A program made the translations under genes and the position numbers. A stretch of 10,043 nt of DNA from Flavobacteriaceae bacterium (lineage in GTDB: Bacteria; Bacteroidota; Bacteroidia; Flavobacteriales; Flavobacteriaceae). Below are positions 737-10,043 of this stretch, one piece after another (positions within the stretch are counted from its first letter, which is position 1; every line of letters starts with the position of its first letter). The stretch spans positions 1 to 10,043 of the forward strand of contig JAMOMG010000159.1 of assembly GCA_027068695.1 (NCBI GenBank). Direction: 5' to 3'. The notes beneath the pieces are model-generated. The model worked only from the letters and a program-made list of their open reading frames with translations, was not told the origin of the DNA and searched no databases.

Positions 737-955
737 ATGAGTAAGAACAAAAAAGAACTTTTGATAGAATTTTTAAAGAAAGGCATAAAAGACAATAAAA
801 TTCTTGCCCGAATTTTAGAAACAAGCCCGCAATCGATTGCAGTTATGAAATATAAACTTGTTAAAGAAGGAATTTTAAAAGAAGAGGAAGTATATGTACG
901 AAAAAATAAAAAAAGAAATAAAACAAAAGAGAAGAAAGATCTGCCTTTTCTTTGA
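737..955 (+). CDS. Small helix-turn-helix DNA-binding protein (72 aa)
   Basis: A 72-residue, very basic protein. Residues 5-47 fit a (winged) helix-turn-helix: helix 1 KELLIEFLKKG, helix 2 NKILARILET (about 20-29), turn SPQ, recognition helix SIAVMKYKLVKEG (about 33-45). This resembles the common pattern of a helix followed by 'ARIL-S-Q-A--K-KL---GIL'. The C-terminal third is a lysine/arginine-rich tail (RKNKKRNKTKEKK) likely to touch DNA non-specifically. The ATG is chosen because a TATA-like box lies 20-30 bases upstream and there is no ribosome site. It directly adjoins the AGTTAA array, which covers its own promoter. The likely role is a repressor or origin-binding protein acting on that array. 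I cannot name a family with certainty. Confidence 0.8.
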   Translation: MSKNKKELLIEFLKKGIKDNKILARILETSPQSIAVMKYKLVKEGILKEEEVYVRKNKKRNKTKEKKDLPFL

Positions 956-970
956 TTTTATTTAGTAAAA
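956..970 (+). terminator. Weak T-rich terminator or hairpin after the HTH gene
   Basis: Directly after the TGA stop, TTTTA (956-960) can pair with TAAAA (966-970) around TTTAG. It is a reduced version of the TTTTACT/AGTAAAA hairpins found after the genes ending at 3204 and 4510. Archaeal termination needs little more than a T tract, so this may be partial termination. Confidence 0.3.
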
Positions 971-1026
971 AAATAAAACTTTTCTAAAGAAATTATATAT
1001 ATTAATTATAATAATAATTCTTTATT
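964..1026 (+). promoter_or_regulatory. Promoter of the membrane protein-protease unit
   Basis: The element AGTAAAAAAATAAAAC begins 63 bases before the ATG. A purine-rich BRE-like TAAAGAAA (985-992) and a TATA box TATATATTAA (about 995-1004) follow. A start 25 bases downstream falls at or just before the ATG at 1027, and no ribosome site is present, so the mRNA is probably leaderless. The part from 985 through the ATG is identical to that before the gene at 3282. Confidence 0.65.
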
Positions 1027-1029
1027 ATG
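985..1029 (+). repeat. 45-bp exact direct repeat, copy 1 (promoter plus ATG)
   Basis: Bases 985-1029 are identical to 3240-3284, covering BRE, TATA box, initiation region and the start codon. Identity ends at the base after the ATG. Upstream, the AGTAAAAA(A/G)ATAAAA element is also shared at the same distance, but the ten or so bases between differ. Confidence 0.9.
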
Positions 1030-1874: not shown

Positions 1875-3204
1875 TTTCTTAGTTGCTAAACAATTTATTT
1901 TAGTTCTTGCGAGCATAACTTTATTTTTCTCTATTTTTCCTTTGTTTTTAAAGCAAACAATTAGTTCTTTATATTTAAAAAATGTAGATCCCGCTGTAAT
2001 TAGTAATTTAAATCAAGGAAAGCCTACTATTGCTTATATTACTTTCAAAAACAGAATTAATTTAAGATGTGAAAGAATTTGGAATTTTGGTAAAATAAAG
2101 ATATGTAAATATGTTATTTATAGCAAAAAACAACTAGAAAAAATAGCAAGAATGAGCAACGTTCTTGGAGTATCTTATACATATACTTACAAAATTATAC
2201 CTAGAACGACCTCAACTCAATATAATTATAATGTAAATATTTACTACAAAACTATGCTTATGAATAAAAATTCTCAATATAATGGAAATATCACAGTTGG
2301 AATAGTTGATACGGGAGTTGACTTCATGAATCCTTATTTTTTCAGAAATAACGTAACAGTTTTTAAGGTTTTAGTTGATTGTAGAGTTTATCCTTGCGTC
2401 GTTAATAATACGAGTAATTTTACTTACAATCAAATGCTAAACGTGTTTAATTTTAGTTATAATTCTGAATTACATTACTATCAAGATTTTAATGGACATG
2501 GAACTTTTGTTACAGGAGAAATTGTTTCACAGTATTCAAATTATAAAGGATTAGCACCCGGGGACTACATAGTAGAAATAAAAGCATTTAATAAAAATGG
2601 AACTGCATCAACTGACGAAATATTAAATGCCCTTCAATGGCTTTACAACAACATTCCAATATACAATATAAAAGCACTTAGTTTTAGTTGGGGAAGCGCT
2701 GAGCCTTGTTCTCCTTACAATCCAATAATTCAAGCAATTAAACAAATCTATTTAACATATAGAATTCCAATTTTCGTCGCAGCGGGAAATTATGGAAACT
2801 TTTTAGGGGATATTGGAAGTCCCGCATGCTCACAGTATGTTTTTGCAGTTGGAAGTTGGAACTGCTATGAAAATAAATTATCGTGGTTTAGCAGCGTTGG
2901 ACCAGCGGAAGACAGAATAAAACCCGATTTTGTCGCTTGTGGAACTGAAATAGTAAATCTAAGAAGTCAAACGAGTGATTTAGGATGTTTGGAAGGAAAT
3001 TGCAATTTAACGGTTATGAGCGGTACTAGTATGGCAACTCCCCTAGCAACTGCGTGCTATAGTCGTTTCTATCAATATTATATAGATACATATGGAAGAG
3101 CACCGTCACCAAAAGATTTTATCGAGTATGAAAAAGTAAATGCTATAAAGTATTTTATACATAAAGATGTGTTTACTGGGTATGGATTTTTACAATGTCC
3201 TTAG
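1795..3204 (+). CDS. Membrane-targeted subtilisin-like serine protease (S8)
   Basis: A complete subtilase of 469 residues from the ATG at 1795, chosen for the GGAGGG site eight bases upstream. The 1759 ATG would add 12 residues. The basic N-terminus (residues 1-27) precedes a hydrophobic helix (about 28-52), a signal peptide or type II anchor. Residues about 60-140 look like an I9-type propeptide (PTIAYITFKNRI and following). The catalytic set is intact: Asp172 in IVDTGVD, His235 in GHGTF, oxyanion Asn332 in AAGN, Ser412 in GTSMATP. About a dozen cysteines in the extracytoplasmic part suggest disulfides, and several N-x-S/T sequons suggest glycosylation. The chain ends soon after the catalytic core with no added domain. 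It is third in a unit with two membrane proteins. Likely roles are maturation of the neighbouring surface glycoproteins or attack on a cell surface; the substrate is not shown by the sequence. Confidence 0.93.
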   Translation: MRLWQKYIEKKNLNDSKNISKYIRKSNFLVAKQFILVLASITLFFSIFPLFLKQTISSLYLKNVDPAVISNLNQGKPTIAYITFKNRINLRCERIWNFGKIKICKYVIYSKKQLEKIARMSNVLGVSYTYTYKIIPRTTSTQYNYNVNIYYKTMLMNKNSQYNGNITVGIVDTGVDFMNPYFFRNNVTVFKVLVDCRVYPCVVNNTSNFTYNQMLNVFNFSYNSELHYYQDFNGHGTFVTGEIVSQYSNYKGLAPGDYIVEIKAFNKNGTASTDEILNALQWLYNNIPIYNIKALSFSWGSAEPCSPYNPIIQAIKQIYLTYRIPIFVAAGNYGNFLGDIGSPACSQYVFAVGSWNCYENKLSWFSSVGPAEDRIKPDFVACGTEIVNLRSQTSDLGCLEGNCNLTVMSGTSMATPLATACYSRFYQYYIDTYGRAPSPKDFIEYEKVNAIKYFIHKDVFTGYGFLQCP

Positions 3205-3226
3205 TTTTTACTTTTTTTAGTAAAAA
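3205..3226 (+). terminator. Hairpin/T-tract terminator after the subtilase
   Basis: TTTTTACT (3205-3212) pairs with AGTAAAAA (3219-3226) around six Ts, starting directly after the TAG stop. The T tracts alone would suit archaeal termination. The right arm is also the start of the conserved promoter element of the next gene, so terminator and promoter share bases. Confidence 0.55.
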
Positions 3227-3281
3227 GATAAAAGATAATTAAAGAAATTATATATATTAATTATAATAATAATTCTTTATT
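3219..3281 (+). promoter_or_regulatory. Promoter of the 250-residue glycoprotein gene
   Basis: AGTAAAAAGATAAAA starts 63 bases before the ATG, exactly as upstream of 1027. A BRE-like TAAAGAAA (3240-3247) and TATATATTAA (about 3250-3259) follow. No ribosome site precedes the ATG at 3282, so the transcript is probably leaderless and co-regulated with the 1027 unit. Confidence 0.65.
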
Positions 3282-3284
3282 ATG
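3240..3284 (+). repeat. 45-bp exact direct repeat, copy 2 (promoter plus ATG)
   Basis: Identical to 985-1029, through the ATG. The coding sequences that follow are unrelated, so the repeat is a shared control element rather than part of a gene duplication. Confidence 0.9.
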
Positions 3285-4034
3285 GAGAGGACGAAAGTAA
3301 TAAATAAGGAAAGAATAGGAAAACTGTTTAGTTTGATTCTTATTTTTGCATTCTTTACTGGAGTTTTTGGAGCAACTATAATATGTTATGACCAGAACGG
3401 ACTTCCCGTAACTGGAACTAAACTTATTGTAGCAAACTCAACAACTAGATTGAATCTAACGACAAATGGATCGACTGGAACAACTGTTAACTTAATAAAT
3501 GGAACAAACTATACAGTTTACTGTTTCATAACATCTAATAAAGTCATAATGGGAGAAATACTATTAGCAAATAATTCATTGTCATACTCGTTCAACGCAA
3601 GCGCATATAACTATACGACTATATCTTTACCAAAATACTCGTGTTTGAACGTTTCTTACAACGTGTCTTTTACTAATATGAACATACCTTTAACATTGAC
3701 TGGAAATAGTACGCTATACACAGAGAACGTGTCTGATGTGAACATATCTGGCTTTGTTAAGGAAATAAAGAAAGGAATGTACATATATAAACTAGAGAAC
3801 ATAACTGTCAACAACGTTACATATAACAACACTACATACGTAACTGTTAAGGCATATGAGAACAACGATGTAAAAGTGTACTACATAAGAACATTGAAAG
3901 CATGGGTTATGGGTATGTTGCTATTGTTCATACTAGCACTATTGGTACTTATTTACGTCTCTCTGGGTAAGGGAATGATTAAGCACAGTTTGAAAGAAAA
4001 CAAGTGGATAGAAGTAAATAGAAAGAGAAAGTGA
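3282..4034 (+). CDS. Type I membrane glycoprotein with conserved cytoplasmic tail (250 aa)
   Basis: I cannot assign a named family. The 250-residue protein has a signal peptide (basic 1-14, hydrophobic 15-29, likely cleavage near VFG-A, residues 30-31), an extracytoplasmic domain (about 31-205), one membrane helix (about 207-228) and a 22-residue basic tail. About 17 N-x-S/T sequons (hand count) crowd the ectodomain. Its first part (IICYDQNGLPVTGTKLIVAN onwards) resembles carboxypeptidase-regulatory-like or Ig-type beta sandwiches with the 'nG.pv.g..v.v' pattern. The tail IKHSLKENKWIEVNR matches IPHTLKDNKWLEVNR at the end of the 1714-residue protein, so both probably bind the same inner partner. 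Asn is mostly AAC here, unlike the first half of the giant gene, which may mark higher expression. The start is fixed by the 45-bp leaderless promoter block shared with 1027. It may be the abundant small component of a surface layer or virion coat. Confidence 0.85.
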   Translation: MERTKVINKERIGKLFSLILIFAFFTGVFGATIICYDQNGLPVTGTKLIVANSTTRLNLTTNGSTGTTVNLINGTNYTVYCFITSNKVIMGEILLANNSLSYSFNASAYNYTTISLPKYSCLNVSYNVSFTNMNIPLTLTGNSTLYTENVSDVNISGFVKEIKKGMYIYKLENITVNNVTYNNTTYVTVKAYENNDVKVYYIRTLKAWVMGMLLLFILALLVLIYVSLGKGMIKHSLKENKWIEVNRKRK

Positions 4035-4038
4035 GAAC

Positions 4039-4260
4039 ATGACAAAATCGATAGAACTTTTAAAAGAAGTAAGACTAAAAGGAACTAATACAACACTTTA
4101 TGAAGTTTTACAACCGGCAGTAGAGAAATGTAAACTAGTTGCTCAGAATGACTCAGAACTTGAAGACTGTGTTAAGTCAATAGTATCGTATGCTTATGTT
4201 ACGCTAGAGACGAAGAGAATTCCAAATATGATTAAAAATAAGAGATTCATAAAACTTTAA
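4039..4260 (+). CDS. Small soluble hypothetical protein (73 aa)
   Basis: A 73-residue protein, predicted mostly helical and cytoplasmic, starting MTKSIELLKEVRLKG and ending in a basic stretch (MIKNKRFIKL). Two cysteines (Cys32 in EKCKLV, Cys44 in LEDCVKS) flank the middle. It starts four bases after the stop of the glycoprotein gene, with only a weak purine-rich site (GTGAGAAC) overlapping that stop, so it is probably read from the same mRNA. There is no signal peptide or membrane segment. As the cytoplasmic product of this two-gene unit it could contact the conserved tail of the glycoprotein, but this rests on position only. Family not recognised. Confidence 0.7.
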   Translation: MTKSIELLKEVRLKGTNTTLYEVLQPAVEKCKLVAQNDSELEDCVKSIVSYAYVTLETKRIPNMIKNKRFIKL

Positions 4261-4288
4261 TATTTTTTAAGTATTTCTTTTTCTTAGT
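4254..4288 (+). promoter_or_regulatory. Possible promoter and T-rich terminator before the 4289 gene
   Basis: CTTTAATATTTTTTAAG (4254-4270) is TATA-like and 20-35 bases before the ATG at 4289. It is followed by a pyrimidine-rich run ending TTTCTTTTTCTTAGT, similar to the tract before the 737 ATG. There is no ribosome site. The T runs could also end the upstream transcript. Confidence 0.35.
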
Positions 4289-4510
4289 ATGCTCACGACA
4301 AAAGTAAAGAGAGGAGTTAAGAGAATATTTGGATTCTTACCTATGAGTTTTGATGAGTTTTTGTTGTGTTTAGATAAGTTAAAGAATGACAAGAATCGTG
4401 TGCATTTTTTAACATACAGAAAGGCAAAGCAATACATAGAGATTTGTTCTAATGAATTTTTAAATGATAAAGAGAAAAAAATAATTCTAAAAAAATTGAA
4501 AAATCTTTAA
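4289..4510 (+). CDS. Small basic hypothetical protein (73 aa)
   Basis: A 73-residue, lysine-rich, probably helical protein: MLTTKVKRGVKRIFGFLPMS, then DEFLLCLDKLKND and a basic helical C-terminus (EKKIILKKLKNL). The alternation of leucines/isoleucines with lysines suggests amphipathic helices that could bind nucleic acid, membrane surface or a partner protein. There is no transmembrane segment and no recognised motif. It lies 28 bases after the 4039 gene, in front of the giant gene, and is closed by a hairpin/T-rich terminator. The ATG at 4289 follows a TATA-like stretch at a leaderless distance. Function unknown; it could be expressed alone or as the last gene of the 3282 unit. Confidence 0.7.
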   Translation: MLTTKVKRGVKRIFGFLPMSFDEFLLCLDKLKNDKNRVHFLTYRKAKQYIEICSNEFLNDKEKKIILKKLKNL

Positions 4511-4519
4511 TTCTTTTTC

Positions 4520-4539
4520 TTTTACTTTTTCTAGTAAAA
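4520..4539 (+). terminator. Hairpin/T-tract terminator before the giant gene
   Basis: TTTTACT (4520-4526) pairs with AGTAAAA (4533-4539) around TTTTCT, shortly after the TAA at 4508-4510, with further T runs on the left. Stem and loop sizes nearly match the hairpin at 3205-3226, and the right arm again starts a promoter element. Confidence 0.5.
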
Positions 4540-4594
4540 AAATAAAACATTCTTGTTTAAAATTAATTTATCTTTAATTATATTAGATTATATT
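4533..4594 (+). promoter_or_regulatory. Promoter of the giant glycoprotein gene
   Basis: AGTAAAAAAATAAAAC starts 62 bases before the ATG at 4595, matching the 63-base spacing at 964 and 3219. The core differs from the 45-bp repeat but keeps the plan: a TATA-like TTTAAAATTAATTTA (4556-4570) and an AT-rich stretch ending TATTATG. No ribosome site is seen, so a leaderless start at 4595 is likely. Confidence 0.55.
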
Positions 4595-7500
4595 ATGAAT
4601 ATGGATATAATAAACAAGAAAATAAAAGTAGTTCTTAGTTTGTTTTATGTTTTATTTGTTTTAAGTGGAATAATTGGAATTGGAGCAGTTATAAACACTT
4701 TTCCATATTATATAAATACTAGTGGAGTGTATTGGATAAATGGAACTTTAAAATGTAATGCTTCACCTTGTATAATAGTAAATACCACTCAATTAGTAGT
4801 TTTACAAGGTAATAGCACTGGTTCCCTTGATTCGTATGGAAACTTAACTATTTATATAAACAGTACAATTAACACGGTTAATTTAATAATAAATCATGTT
4901 TATATTTATAACACAAGTAATATAGTATATGTAACAAGTTCTACGCCTATTCTAATCAACATTAGTTTAGAAAACAATACTATAGTTTCAAGTAGCGAAT
5001 ACTTTGTGAATTATACTGCAAACCCACAAAATTATATTTTTAAAATAATAAACAGTAACTTTGAAACTGAGCAGTATTTAAATAATACCGTTTCTGGTAC
5101 TTTAGAAATAATAAATAGCACAACTACAAAAGATATTTATTGTTATTCTTTTAATTATAATGAATTCCATGCTTTGCTCATATATAATTCAACTGTTTAT
5201 AATATTTCTTTGTATGGTGGTTATGGAATTGTTAATGTTAACTTATCAAATATAAGCAAGTTATATATTCAATCTTATTCAAAAAACACAAGTTATGAAG
5301 AAAAAATAGAAAATAGCGTGTTTAATATTTTTGCTAATTTGAATTTTATTAGAAATATAACGATAAATAATTGTACTTTTAACTACATAAGAACTGGTTG
5401 GACTGGAACAGTAACACCGCCGGGTCAACTATATTATTATCATAATCATTTATTTCTGAACAATTCAAAAATTTACCATGAATTTGCTTTCGTTCCCGGG
5501 GATACTGCAGTATCTTTTTATATGAATGATTTTATGTTTTGTAATAGTAATTTATTAGTTGCTTCTCCTTATCCAGCGGGAGATCCGTGCCAACTTGGAA
5601 GTTGGCACGCTCTTGTAGAAAATTCTACAATTATATACAATAAGTCCGGAAACATAGGCCATAATATAACAATTAGATATTCTAGCATAATAATTAACGG
5701 AAGTATTATATATCAACACGGAGTTCCAAACCAAACTGGTATTCATTTAATAAATTCAAAACTATTAGAGTTTGCTAATTCATATCTCTATTGGGGAAAT
5801 ATACTTTCAGACAATAGTGAAATATATATTTTTGACTCTCAATTTATTCAAAAAGAAACTCTTCCAAGTTTTTTAGCGTCATTAGTAATAAATTGGACTA
5901 GTTATTTTAACAATAGTAGTTTAGTTTTTAACAATACAGTAAATATATTTAATTTAACGAATACCAGCGATGTAATAAGTAATAGCACTATTTATGCAGA
6001 AAATTTTGTTGGAACAACAACAGCATACAGAAATGTATTCAATTTTATAACCCAAGGGGTATATATTGGTCATGGATTTATAAATAATACAAAAATAATT
6101 ATTAACAATACAAACATTTACACAAATTTGTTCCACTTTAATTATGCATATGTTTATTTAAATAATGTAACGATAATAAATAATTCTACAAACGTGTATT
6201 TAAACAGTATAATTAGATTGGACTACGGAAGTTTTGCAAATATTACTAACACAAGTTTTTGTGTTCCATTTTATATAAAATATAATTTATTATTTACAGA
6301 AACAAACAGTTCAAGTTTTATAGGACATATTTGGATAAATCCAGTAAAAGTAAGTAATATAACATACGTTATAAACTGGCCAGACGATAGTTTTTACTGT
6401 AATGGAACACCACTGTTTAAAGTGTATAATGAATTAAAATTGAAAGGTTATTTTACTGTTGCAAACATATTTAAAACTCCTTTTGAATTTGATACTAAAA
6501 AAATTCCATTTAAGTTCGAAGAAAATAATTATACTATTAAAATTAGTTCTATTTATGAACCAAAAGGAGAATATATTCTATTTCAGCAAAATAGTAATGA
6601 AAACTACTTAAGTAACATAATAAACAAATCTACTCTTATAGTTGAGAATATTATAAATAAATACTTAGGAAGTATGTCATTTGAAGATAAAAACGTGCTA
6701 CACTTGCAACTAATTCCATCTACATATTACTTTATAAAAGATATACGATTTAATATACCACTAAAATATTACATTAACTTTGAAAATAACATAAGCATAT
6801 CATTTACAACTAATTACAGTGAAGATTTACAACTATGTAGTACTTTAGCAGTGTTTAAAAGATGTGTTACAGCATCAATGAAACAACCAAGCGCAGAATA
6901 CTTAATAGTTTATGTTCTAAACTTAACTTCCAATCAAATTCAAAAGTATGTTATATTATTAACAAATGAAGGAGGAACAGTTTACAATTACATTTATAGT
7001 TATGTTTCTACTTTCGGAGGAAAAATAATAGTTATGTCATTTAATTCACAAGAAAATATTTCATTAAACAAAGTTTTAGGACTTTACTCAGATAATTACA
7101 TTATAACATACATGAATATAGGAATAATAGAAGCAGTAACACAAACGGGTCCAGCAGTTATAACATATTCATTTAAGCCTCAATTAACACTATCAATCCC
7201 TAATCCAAGTCAACTAACCATGATAGATAGATTTTCTATAAATAATTTGAAAGTAGTTGCATATTCTCAAGGTATTACTTATTATCCTCCTTTCAAATTT
7301 ATTATTTCCGTTAACGGAGAAGATATAGTTCCTTCGACTATGATAATAAATACTTCGAAATTAGAAATAAAATCCGCACTTCCGCTTGTTGTTTATGGAT
7401 CTATCAAACTATACGGTAATTTAACGTTCCCATTTAGTCAATTAAACTATTTTACTTACAACACGATTTATTCATACTTGTACGATAAATTTTTCACAAT

Positions 7501-9739
7501 AAAAAGCGTTTATCTTTATGCACTACCATACTATCCATTTAGAATTTACAATAATATTTCATTTAAGTACGATAATGGAACTATTATTAATAAATCGGTA
7601 GATTTAACTCATAATTTTAAATTAATATTTTCCAAGGACGGAATAACATATGAAGCAAAAAATAGTTTCAATTTTGACTATTTAGGTAATATTTTACATG
7701 TATTTCCTAATTTTACTTTGAAATTTAACACGAGTTGGTTAAAGAGAGAACCAGACATATTTGTTAAAAATATACAAGTAAAAACATTGAATAATAGTCC
7801 TACGTGTGCAATAGTTACTATTAAAGCAATAAACATAAGCAATTACACAATTCCAACAAATATAACAAATATATTAGTTTGTGGAAACAAAACATTTTAT
7901 TATAACACATCCATAAACGTTAGCAATAAAACTACTGTTTATTCTTTCGATTTAATTCCATACATTTACAATTTATCGAATATAACTTGTAATTATACAG
8001 TTAAAATAAATCCAAAATTCGATATTATTCGAGCAGACAATCAACTCTCAACAGAATTTTATATTTTCCCTAAAAAGACTGGTGCTGCTAATTTAACTAT
8101 TATAGTTAAAAATGCATCAAATCAACAAATAATACCAGCAGATATTTATATTTACTATGAAAATGGTACGTTATATGCTAGCAACACGACAAACAATGGA
8201 GTTGTTAATATTACAAATATTAATTTCAGTTATTACATAATAGAAGTTAAGAATACTTCATATTATACTTATAATAAGAGTGTATTCATTGGATATAAGA
8301 ATTATACAATAATAGCATACTTAGTTCCAAAAAGCGTTAGTAAAACAAAATATGGAGTGTTGCAAGTTTGTATTTTAACAAAAGACAGAGAACCAGTCCC
8401 AGAACACAACGTTTCAATTTACTACACTAATGGAACATTTATTACTAATTTAACCGTGAACTCGACTGGTTGTGGTAGTATAGTTTTAACAGCAAACTTG
8501 ACTTATAAAGTTGCGACATTTGTAAATCTTACGTGGTACAACAAAACTGCATTCCTTTATCCAATAAACGTAAAACCTTACACAGAAGTTTTAATTTTCA
8601 CAAATATACTAAGTAATAACATAGAACCAGAAGCGCTAATATTATATGCAAAAGTATTAAATACATTTGATCAAAATCAATATATTCCAGTTACTTATGC
8701 AATATATAGTTCAGTTCCTCAAAACGTTACAGTAAATATTACAGCACAGTACTATAATGCTGGATCTTGGGTATATTATAAATCTATACAATATAATCTT
8801 ACTTTTAAAGAATTCAAGCAAGTATTAACAAATACTAGTGCTATATTGATAAACACTAGCAATGTTACGACATTTAGATATGTAATTACCATTTACCCAC
8901 AGAGCGACACAAACACTAGCAATAATCAAATAATAACAAATAACTTTACAGTTTTCAATATGATAGACTATATGGTAACATTATTTAATTTAATGCAAAA
9001 TGTTAAACCAAACGCTAAATTTAACATAAGTTTAATGCTTAATGGAACTATAAAATCTAGATGTAATATTTCATTAAAAGAATCATATCTAGATCCATAC
9101 ACAAGTAAACTAATAACAAAAACACAGTATTTAAACTTAACAACAAACAACACAACAAATATTTCAGTTACAGTTCCATATACGAACAATTTAACGTTAA
9201 ACGCTACACTTGTAGACTGCTATTTACTAAAAATGGATATGAACAAAAGAAATAATCGAAATATTCAAAATATCACAGAAATTTCAGACGCAAGAATAAT
9301 AAAAATAGTACATCCTAATGTCTCACGCTCTAAAAACATAACAATAAATATAACAATAGTATCAAACTATCCTTTGAAACTTGTATTATATGATAATAAT
9401 CATTCAGAAGCAATACTAAACACGAGTTTTGGTAATAATACTTACCAAGTATTAATAACTTTGCAAAATACAAGTACGTTTGGAACTAATATCGAAAATA
9501 TAACGATTAGCGGAGACCAAGACCCATATATGAACTCATATGAGTTTAAAATATATTACATAGGTACTAAAGAAAGTATTTTGATAATTATAATAGTTAT
9601 ACTAATAATATTGTTTATACTGTATAAGTTTGGAAAACTGTTAATTCCACATACATTGAAAGATAATAAATGGTTAGAGGTAAATAGAACAAAACCAACA
9701 ATAAAATACAACTACAATAAAAAATGGTTCGAAAGATGA
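4595..9739 (+). CDS. Giant cell- or virion-surface glycoprotein (1714 aa)
   Basis: A 1714-residue type I membrane protein. The ATG at 4595 fits the promoter spacing; the frame opens further upstream at a TTG (4553), but that lies inside the promoter. Signal peptide about 1-31; ectodomain about 32-1659; one membrane helix about 1660-1677; 37-residue basic tail. Residues about 35-600 are short beta-strand repeats rich in N-S-T-I-Y, suggesting a right-handed parallel beta-helix as in adhesins and tail spikes. About 600-1150 is beta-rich and unassigned. Two carboxypeptidase-regulatory-like or Ig-like sandwiches follow (about 1160-1246 and 1253-1332), then a CARDB-like domain (about 1354-1458, with YPQSDTNTSNN). 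I count about 110 N-x-S/T sequons. The tail motif IPHTLKDNKWLEVNR is shared with the 250-residue glycoprotein. Likely an adhesin, spike or fibre; ligand unknown. The next membrane protein gene overlaps its stop. Confidence 0.88.
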   Translation: MNMDIINKKIKVVLSLFYVLFVLSGIIGIGAVINTFPYYINTSGVYWINGTLKCNASPCIIVNTTQLVVLQGNSTGSLDSYGNLTIYINSTINTVNLIINHVYIYNTSNIVYVTSSTPILINISLENNTIVSSSEYFVNYTANPQNYIFKIINSNFETEQYLNNTVSGTLEIINSTTTKDIYCYSFNYNEFHALLIYNSTVYNISLYGGYGIVNVNLSNISKLYIQSYSKNTSYEEKIENSVFNIFANLNFIRNITINNCTFNYIRTGWTGTVTPPGQLYYYHNHLFLNNSKIYHEFAFVPGDTAVSFYMNDFMFCNSNLLVASPYPAGDPCQLGSWHALVENSTIIYNKSGNIGHNITIRYSSIIINGSIIYQHGVPNQTGIHLINSKLLEFANSYLYWGNILSDNSEIYIFDSQFIQKETLPSFLASLVINWTSYFNNSSLVFNNTVNIFNLTNTSDVISNSTIYAENFVGTTTAYRNVFNFITQGVYIGHGFINNTKIIINNTNIYTNLFHFNYAYVYLNNVTIINNSTNVYLNSIIRLDYGSFANITNTSFCVPFYIKYNLLFTETNSSSFIGHIWINPVKVSNITYVINWPDDSFYCNGTPLFKVYNELKLKGYFTVANIFKTPFEFDTKKIPFKFEENNYTIKISSIYEPKGEYILFQQNSNENYLSNIINKSTLIVENIINKYLGSMSFEDKNVLHLQLIPSTYYFIKDIRFNIPLKYYINFENNISISFTTNYSEDLQLCSTLAVFKRCVTASMKQPSAEYLIVYVLNLTSNQIQKYVILLTNEGGTVYNYIYSYVSTFGGKIIVMSFNSQENISLNKVLGLYSDNYIITYMNIGIIEAVTQTGPAVITYSFKPQLTLSIPNPSQLTMIDRFSINNLKVVAYSQGITYYPPFKFIISVNGEDIVPSTMIINTSKLEIKSALPLVVYGSIKLYGNLTFPFSQLNYFTYNTIYSYLYDKFFTIKSVYLYALPYYPFRIYNNISFKYDNGTIINKSVDLTHNFKLIFSKDGITYEAKNSFNFDYLGNILHVFPNFTLKFNTSWLKREPDIFVKNIQVKTLNNSPTCAIVTIKAINISNYTIPTNITNILVCGNKTFYYNTSINVSNKTTVYSFDLIPYIYNLSNITCNYTVKINPKFDIIRADNQLSTEFYIFPKKTGAANLTIIVKNASNQQIIPADIYIYYENGTLYASNTTNNGVVNITNINFSYYIIEVKNTSYYTYNKSVFIGYKNYTIIAYLVPKSVSKTKYGVLQVCILTKDREPVPEHNVSIYYTNGTFITNLTVNSTGCGSIVLTANLTYKVATFVNLTWYNKTAFLYPINVKPYTEVLIFTNILSNNIEPEALILYAKVLNTFDQNQYIPVTYAIYSSVPQNVTVNITAQYYNAGSWVYYKSIQYNLTFKEFKQVLTNTSAILINTSNVTTFRYVITIYPQSDTNTSNNQIITNNFTVFNMIDYMVTLFNLMQNVKPNAKFNISLMLNGTIKSRCNISLKESYLDPYTSKLITKTQYLNLTTNNTTNISVTVPYTNNLTLNATLVDCYLLKMDMNKRNNRNIQNITEISDARIIKIVHPNVSRSKNITINITIVSNYPLKLVLYDNNHSEAILNTSFGNNTYQVLITLQNTSTFGTNIENITISGDQDPYMNSYEFKIYYIGTKESILIIIIVILIILFILYKFGKLLIPHTLKDNKWLEVNRTKPTIKYNYNKKWFER
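5501..5514. repeat. 14-bp perfect palindrome inside the giant gene
   Basis: GATACTGCAGTATC is a perfect palindrome directly after CCCGGG (5495-5500), itself a six-base palindrome. Both are more GC-rich than the surrounding gene. It may be chance, but it lies within 90 bases of two further inverted repeats. Confidence 0.6.
5586..5609. repeat. GC-rich inverted repeat with 11-bp arms inside the giant gene
   Basis: CGTGCCAACTT (5586-5596) and AAGTTGGCACG (5599-5609) are perfect inverted arms around GG. The stem contains six G/C pairs in a gene of very low GC. It encodes PCQLGSWHA (about residues 331-339), part of a cysteine-bearing loop in the beta-helix region. Confidence 0.8.
5613..5630. repeat. 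Second inverted repeat, adjacent to the first
   Basis: TTGTAGAA (5613-5620) and TTCTACAA (5623-5630) are perfect 8-bp inverted arms around AA, starting three bases after the previous inverted repeat. The two would form side-by-side hairpins in single-stranded DNA or RNA. Confidence 0.75.
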
Positions 9740-10043
9740 GCAACATAAATCAAGACGTTAACTTAGCAACATCCTTTAGTTTATTTTTACTTGCTTTTAT
9801 TGTTTCTTTCTTTTATAAAACTCTTTCAATTGTTTTAATGACTATTATAATTGGACCTATAGTTTATTCATTAAATTATCTTTCAAAAGAACATAATATG
9901 AAAGAAGAGATTAATTTATTTATTTTTACTTACATAGTTAGTCTTATTTTCTGTTATTTATTTTTACATAAAATTTTAATAGTAGAGGTGTTTATCGCTC
10001 TCATTTTTTATGTACTCGCTAAGAAAATAAATAGAAACTTATT
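9736..10043 (+). CDS. Four-helix membrane protein, partial (C-terminus beyond window)
   Basis: An ATG overlapping the stop of the giant gene (ATGA) opens a frame that runs 102 residues to the window edge without a stop. It starts MSNINQDVNLATSFSLFLLA and has four probable membrane helices at about 10-27, 29-49, 60-78 and 80-95. A polar loop (YLSKEHNMKEEIN, about 48-60) separates the two pairs and a basic segment (AKKINRNL) follows. This plan, two helix pairs split by a charged loop and a basic C-terminus, matches the small proteins at 1027 and 1428. Coupling to the giant gene suggests a membrane partner of that glycoprotein. Family not recognised. Confidence 0.75.
   Translation, partial: MSNINQDVNLATSFSLFLLAFIVSFFYKTLSIVLMTIIIGPIVYSLNYLSKEHNMKEEINLFIFTYIVSLIFCYLFLHKILIVEVFIALIFYVLAKKINRNL

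Follow-up and report, generated by a model that had tools for sequence, protein, structure and literature searches.

Tetrabrachion, from Staphylothermus marinus, is a giant β-rich surface glycoprotein with a stalk-bound protease of the subtilisin family, STABLE (PMC5744192). The VP4/VP5 spike of pleolipoviruses is a type-I protein with a C-terminal helix and is accompanied by a small membrane protein (PMC6381117). In SSV19, an archaeal virus of the fusellovirus group, the tailspike VP4 is a large surface protein with a role related to host glycans (PMC12042106), and in the CTERM tags (PGF-CTERM, MYXO-CTERM and others) the region of a C-terminal helix is reused on several surface proteins (PMC11980579). 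Here we describe a 10,043-base stretch of DNA, contig JAMOMG010000159.1 (called the window, at its full length), which encodes two predicted surface glycoproteins, of 250 and 1714 residues, that carry the same short peptide after a single C-terminal membrane helix. This match is kept at the protein level; it is neither a fresh copy nor a DNA signal.

The window resembles the tetrabrachion system in that it combines a giant surface glycoprotein with a subtilisin-family protease, whose gene (S8 family) lies upstream of the small glycoprotein, and tetrabrachion with its protease may be the nearest analogue known to us for a giant glycoprotein with a subtilase. However, the stalk of tetrabrachion is a right-handed coiled coil, whereas the modelled end of the giant (residues 1230–1714) is all-β, at low confidence, and a second protein with a shared tail is not described in the available part of PMC5744192. 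The pleolipovirus spikes may be the nearest analogue known to us among C-terminally anchored archaeal spikes, and they too go with a small membrane protein, but the helix of HRPV-6 VP5 is followed by no more than two residues and hence by no docking tail (PMC6381117). The VP4 of SSV19 belongs to a tail that also contains C131 and B210, and the available part of PMC12042106 does not mention a shared cytoplasmic tail; a further difference is that the giant has no match in the phages collection. At E up to 10, that collection gave no match for the small protein or for the open reading frames (ORFs) at 1027, 1428 and 9724, and at E up to 0.01 it gave none for the giant; the presence of pleolipoviruses in it was not checked.

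The original prediction, made by inspection of the sequence, located the two tails correctly and counted 11 identical residues out of 15, three of the other four being conservative, and these counts are right. Over 19 ungapped positions, 13 residues are identical. A composition-adjusted BLASTP of the two proteins, as a pair alone, gives 37.7 bits and E = 8e-07, with 13/23 identical and 18/23 similar residues. The local alignment score of the two tails is 77, compared to a maximum of 49 in 20,000 residue shuffles, and the rest of the window, in six frames (1,229 stretches), contains nothing that scores above 31 against either tail. When the 12 codons for a shared residue (Met and Trp aside) are considered, six are the same, for a random expectation of 6.7 ± 1.7 with synonymous codons drawn from the usage of the window. 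Conservation of the residues without conservation of synonymous codon choice suggests that selection acts on the peptide in both genes. Nucleotide identity, counted in the register of the tail, is 17/30 and 23/30 within it and at most 14/30 in the 13 other blocks. On the minus strand at 211–459, an 82-aa ORF holds DNDKWILVE, which resembles the core of the tail by eye; it scores 23 against the tail of the giant, below other chance stretches, and is attributed to chance.

Two relatives of the giant were found with its residues 1400–1714 as a query. Of 4,091 candidates scored, E 10 was passed by three, namely the giant and two proteins from jgi/ena, P0003 (1705 aa, on a contig of 26,494 bases) and P0004 (1738 aa, on a contig of 25,491 bases). 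Their identity to the giant over the alignment is 63% and 38%, respectively. Compared with P0003 in blocks of 60 columns, the fraction of identical residues in the giant is 0.54 at the start, 0.66–0.98 over residues about 61–610, 0.22–0.59 in the middle, 0.60–0.69 over about 1039–1573, 0.43 and 0.42 close to the membrane and 0.35 in the final 17 aligned residues. Conservation at the end of the giant is therefore about as poor as in its variable middle. The giant is a mosaic, which suggests that elements have exchanged heads and leaders. Along the stalk, P0004 is the more distant of the two relatives, so that gain of the tail in the lineage of the window takes one step and its loss two, although three sequences are a small basis. 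A remnant of the tail in the relatives was looked for with 5,000 shuffles, of which 61 (small protein and P0004), 131 (giant and P0003), 2,027 (small protein and P0003) and 2,117 (giant and P0004) reached the observed score; the best value is borderline given four pairs and was not counted. The counts were 79, 145, 2,231 and 2,397 in a previous run that used slightly longer ends. Exchange is also suggested by the leaders, as that of P0003 resembles that of P0004 (score 104) and neither resembles that of the window giant (26 and 25). The two contigs are similar in size and may be near-complete genomes of small elements; they were not found in viral_contigs with the patterns used.

The motif does not look widespread. 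Degenerate patterns for LK[DE]NKW[IL]EVN, which detect exact core matches only, gave no match in viral_contigs and none in genome_contigs. The small protein, used as a query, recovered itself alone among 540 candidates at E 1e-3, and a joined query of four C-terminal pieces recovered the small protein alone among 150 candidates at E 10. All protein searches depend on shared five-residue words, and they covered lengths of about 200–635 aa (joined query) and about 940–3,000 aa (residues 1400–1714 of the giant), the lengths in between not being searched for the tail. Calibration indicated E about 0.002–0.014, within the limit, for a C-terminal module that matches as closely as in the window pair, whereas a match of this closeness in the tail only would reach about 19–22 bits, with E about 19–190, and be unlisted at E up to 10. 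These searches are therefore compatible with the presence, next to P0003 and P0004, of partner glycoproteins that have their own matching tails. No title on such a tail common to two surface proteins was found in literature listings that show the start of the abstracts, and the most direct query yielded no paper. The idea of a family of tail-tagged archaeal surface proteins, put forward from the sequence of the window, is not supported by these results: no third bearer turned up within the scope of these searches and the two relatives lack the motif. The tail seems to pair two proteins of one locus and not to be a tag in wide use.

How far the similarity extends beyond the tail is less clear-cut. 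In the optimal BLOSUM62 alignment, the match begins some 15 residues out from the membrane (YENN-DVKVYYIRT against YMNSYEFKIYYIGT) and continues through the helix; over the last 60–70 residues, which include the juxtamembrane strand, the helix and the tail, its score is 114. Composition-adjusted BLASTP reported nothing beyond the tail. The juxtamembrane piece scores 28, which is reached by 153 of 20,000 shuffles and is the best of 1,640 giant windows examined. With phmmer, run locally against the giant, the last 60 residues of the small protein give 33 bits (positions 6–59), compared to 19 bits for the 22-residue tail alone. The shared piece may be the whole anchor rather than the tail alone. 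The ectodomains had been described as mostly dissimilar, which stands in that no convincing similarity is seen over the rest, but weak similarity reaches outside the membrane. Homology over the whole C-terminal region had been named as the result that would reduce the tail to a duplicated anchor, and the juxtamembrane match goes part of the way in that direction.

The two glycoprotein genes and the first membrane gene are preceded by copies of an 86-nucleotide (nt) repeat (Table 1), which end at the ATG of the three genes. The last 45 nt of the first two copies, including the ATG, are identical. The repeats have a T-rich stretch and a AGTAAAAANATAAAA element, and the first two copies have a TATA-like box, an element of the TATATATA type that begins 34 nt before the ATG. 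The copy of the giant is without this element at that place. Where the element is present, its distance from the ATG would fit an archaeal promoter that gives a leaderless transcript. The repeat looks like a shared promoter, and perhaps an operator. With a common repeat before three gene groups and one copy without the element, co-expression of the three groups is likely, not certain. The repeat has no match in viral_contigs.

The explanation that we favour, tentatively and at somewhat less than an even chance, is that co-expressed glycoproteins carry a common inner peptide, kept by selection, which docks on one inner-face component of the same element. Both genes would give type-I surface glycoproteins, heavily sequon-rich and expressed together, each anchored by one C-terminal helix, and the short peptide that they share would lie at the inner membrane face. 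Selection on the protein would keep this peptide for its binding to a common inner-face component from the same element, such as a co-encoded membrane or matrix-like protein, and binding to one partner would bring both glycoproteins into the same surface structure. The tail would be specific to the element: once separated from the detected relatives, the lineage of the giant would have acquired the tail or exchanged it with the small gene. One shared inner partner from the same element is favoured because it is the simplest reason for a common inner peptide under selection, and it counts for this reading that co-encoded inner or membrane candidates adjoin both glycoprotein genes. The original prediction already had one inner partner read the tail. 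Conservation of the protein with synonymous codons at the random level, between ectodomains without convincing similarity, agrees with the part of this proposal that gives the tail a job, one partner being the simplest job; the docking itself we infer. A further proposal, quite unlikely in our estimation, is that of a tail code, in which the small and giant glycoproteins of each element carry their own matching inner tail, which differs between related elements. A self-encoded assembly partner would then pick its own surface proteins only, and relatives in the same cell would stay unmixed. The data fit such a code because the tails are matched within the window locus and different in both relatives.

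Several observations weigh against docking on one inner partner. The tails of P0003 and P0004, TKKLVLKSHKGSIKIKYYYRKR and TTKLMIKEQDYEFITYNNRRRR, are without the motif, so this exact peptide is not required for the core function of the giant. Neither the protein searches, within their limits of length and shared words, nor the patterns for the exact core brought out a third bearer. An amphipathic helix in the tail is unsupported, since the helical moments (0.07 and 0.08) are reached by 95% and 92% of shuffles, and no obvious binding face is visible. Lastly, the small ectodomain scores 97 against the membrane-proximal part of P0003, a value reached by one of 2,000 shuffles, which together with the juxtamembrane match leaves room for plain inheritance of the anchor. 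Indeed, the small protein might be a shrunken duplicate of the membrane-proximal end of the giant, or share an ancestor with it, its anchor being still recognisable and its tail needing no special partner. We regard this account as doubtful, yet as the one to be taken most seriously after docking. The similarity begins outside the membrane, the whole-protein BLOSUM62 alignment is co-linear (about 46–249 of the small protein to 1504–1700 of the giant), and the match to the P0003 end holds against its reversed control (99 compared to 61). However, the ectodomain match is weak with the membrane-proximal part of the window giant itself (69 for a shuffle mean of 52.7, reached by 112/2,000) and with that of P0004 (484/2,000). 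With the end of the giant the reversed control scores 68 and the match 73, with the whole giant these values are 83 and 82, the best of 16 sliding segments is a distant one (residues 1031–1206, 2/200 shuffles), and hhalign of a profile of the three giants with the small protein yields a probability of 1.2% over 20 columns. Relatives of the giant at 38–63% identity have no such tail, which is not by nature slow to decay. Common descent of the whole proteins is possible.

Recombination or gene conversion between the neighbouring genes could also have copied a tail-encoding piece that serves as a generic stop-transfer and basic anchor only. MAFFT places the motif as an insertion in the window giant relative to P0003 and P0004, the giant is otherwise mosaic, and the different basic tails of the relatives presumably act as anchors. 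We nevertheless consider this unlikely, because the synonymous codons are at the random level, which speaks against recent copying, and 13 of 19 residues have nevertheless been retained, including the H, the W and the EVNR end, which a generic anchor would not preserve. A processing or sorting tag for an archaeosortase, rhombosortase or myxosortase would likewise put a C-terminal helix and then a basic end on more than one surface protein. The CTERM signature precedes the helix, however, whereas the conserved motif of the window follows it. Many tagged proteins per genome would be expected; the window has two, and the searches described above found no third within their scope. No NCBIfam model matched either protein at E up to 0.1. 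We consider this assignment very improbable. The NCBIfam library presumably includes the CTERM models. As for a signal in the DNA or RNA close to the gene ends, or for chance in biased sequence, both tails do end just upstream of the next gene, but their distances to its start codon differ, and the codon test, the composition-adjusted E value, the shuffles (none of 20,000 reaching the score) and the scan of the rest of the window leave this option barely credible.

The genes lie mostly on the plus strand, in the order: 72-aa ORF, two several-helix membrane proteins, S8 subtilase, small glycoprotein, two 73-aa ORFs, giant glycoprotein and a further several-helix membrane protein that runs off the end of the window (Table 1).

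Table 1. Features of the window discussed in the text (nucleotide positions).
Feature	Position	Strand	Remarks
72-aa ORF	737–955		may be a DNA-binding protein, judged by eye
Promoter-like block of first membrane gene	944–1029		86-nt repeat copy
S8 subtilase with N-terminal membrane segment	1795–3204	+	directly upstream of small glycoprotein; start codon 1795 is our choice
Promoter-like block of small protein	3199–3284	+	86-nt repeat copy, 86% identical; TATA-like element starts 34 nt before ATG
Small surface glycoprotein, 250 aa	3282–4034	+	hydrophobic N-terminal segment, 17 N-x-S/T sites, C-terminal membrane helix, 22-aa tail
Small protein, juxtamembrane segment	3849–3896	+	weakly shared with giant
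Small protein, membrane helix	3897–3965	+	residues about 206–228; hydropathy 2.85 over residues 209–227
Small protein, predicted inner tail	3966–4031	+	GKGMIKHSLKENKWIEVNRKRK (residues 229–250); shared core 3966–4022
73-aa ORF	4039–4260	+	4 nt after small glycoprotein; no membrane segment; candidate inner partner
73-aa ORF	4289–4510	+	between both glycoproteins; no membrane segment; candidate inner partner
Promoter-like block of giant	4513–4598	+	most diverged copy (63%) of the 86-nt repeat
Giant surface glycoprotein, 1714 aa	4595–9739	+	110 N-x-S/T sites, hydrophobic N-terminus, C-terminal membrane helix, 35-aa tail
Giant, membrane-proximal stalk	8282–9568	+	all-β, probably Ig-like sandwich domains; low-confidence model
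Giant, juxtamembrane segment	9521–9568	+	weakly shared with small protein
Giant, membrane helix	9569–9631	+	residues about 1659–1679; hydropathy 3.15 over residues 1662–1680; helix also in model
Giant, predicted inner tail	9632–9736	+	residues 1680–1714; shared core GKLLIPHTLKDNKWLEVNR at 9632–9688, then 16-residue unshared end
Several-helix membrane protein	9724–10041	+	overlaps end of giant gene, runs off window; candidate partner

The type-I topology of both glycoproteins, with the tail on the inner face, is a prediction. The start of the giant was set at the ATG at 4595 because it fits the N-termini of the relatives and the end of the promoter repeat. The small protein matches no Pfam or NCBIfam family at E up to 0.1, and its best PHROGs E value is 0.43. 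Its AlphaFold model, computed from the single sequence, has a mean predicted local distance difference test (pLDDT) score of 43.7 and an unusable ectodomain, with a helix over residues 206–249 (block pLDDT 52–85). The stalk of the giant was modelled over 485 residues (1230–1714) with three sequences and is all-β apart from the membrane helix, with a mean pLDDT of 58.3. Foldseek relates this model to complement/α-2-macroglobulin chains and Big-1/Fn3 phage proteins, with TM-scores of at most 0.30 among the matches listed, which supports a β-sandwich and nothing more. The giant has no match among solved chains by sequence at E up to 1; it was not compared directly with tetrabrachion. A signal peptide common to the two glycoproteins was also considered, as the N-termini are alike (VINK..I and IINK.I); the likeness is matched by 61 of 5,000 plain shuffles and by 374 of 5,000 when the architecture is kept, and this candidate was dropped.

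The ORF of the protease contains an S8 catalytic domain (PF00082, E 1.9e-32, 113 bits for a cut-off of 21.8). The S8 subtilase motifs DTG, HGT and SGTSMA are visible in its sequence. Its best solved relatives are 9ues and 3afg (E about 1e-26), the latter presumably of archaeal origin. Among phage records, the top match is the protease of a Methanofastidiosa virus (29% identity), around which none of the 41 annotated features is named glycoprotein. The neighbouring glycoproteins may be substrates of the protease. The membrane-protein ORF at 9724–10041 has an in-frame ATG at 9736, which forms ATGA with the stop codon of the giant.

The uncultured element is probably archaeal, a label that relies on the promoter-like elements and the general character of the sequence and on nothing else, and perhaps viral. 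Its G+C content is 24–33% in 1-kb steps. Among the 10 ORFs scanned with Pfam and PHROGs, on a contig of 10 kb only, no viral hallmark gene (capsid, ATPase, integrase, polymerase) was found, and only protease families and a replication-initiation family (E 0.42) turned up. No tRNA was found in the window and no Rfam family reaches its gathering score. The DNA of the window has no match in the phages collection (near mode); the AT-rich repeats upstream of 737 did give a 71-nt match (82%) to a Campylobacter phage, and this match was judged to be of low complexity and set aside. The giant has no match among plasmids, and no relative of the giant, the small protein or the protease was confirmed in viral_contigs. 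In genome_contigs, an alignment of two protease sequences led to 241 stretches, none of which was confirmed; the patterns were poor, and this result does not argue for absence. Just upstream of the 72-aa ORF, at 507–725, there are dense direct and inverted repeats of the GTTAAATTTTAGTTAAATTT type, possibly origin iterons or an operator array.

The reach of these observations is limited, since they come from one locus with no known host. How surface proteins are selected from the inside in archaeal viruses and cell envelopes is, to our knowledge, a largely open question. Two unrelated-looking glycoproteins with one conserved, predicted inner peptide and a short list of candidate partner genes make a small, testable case of it.

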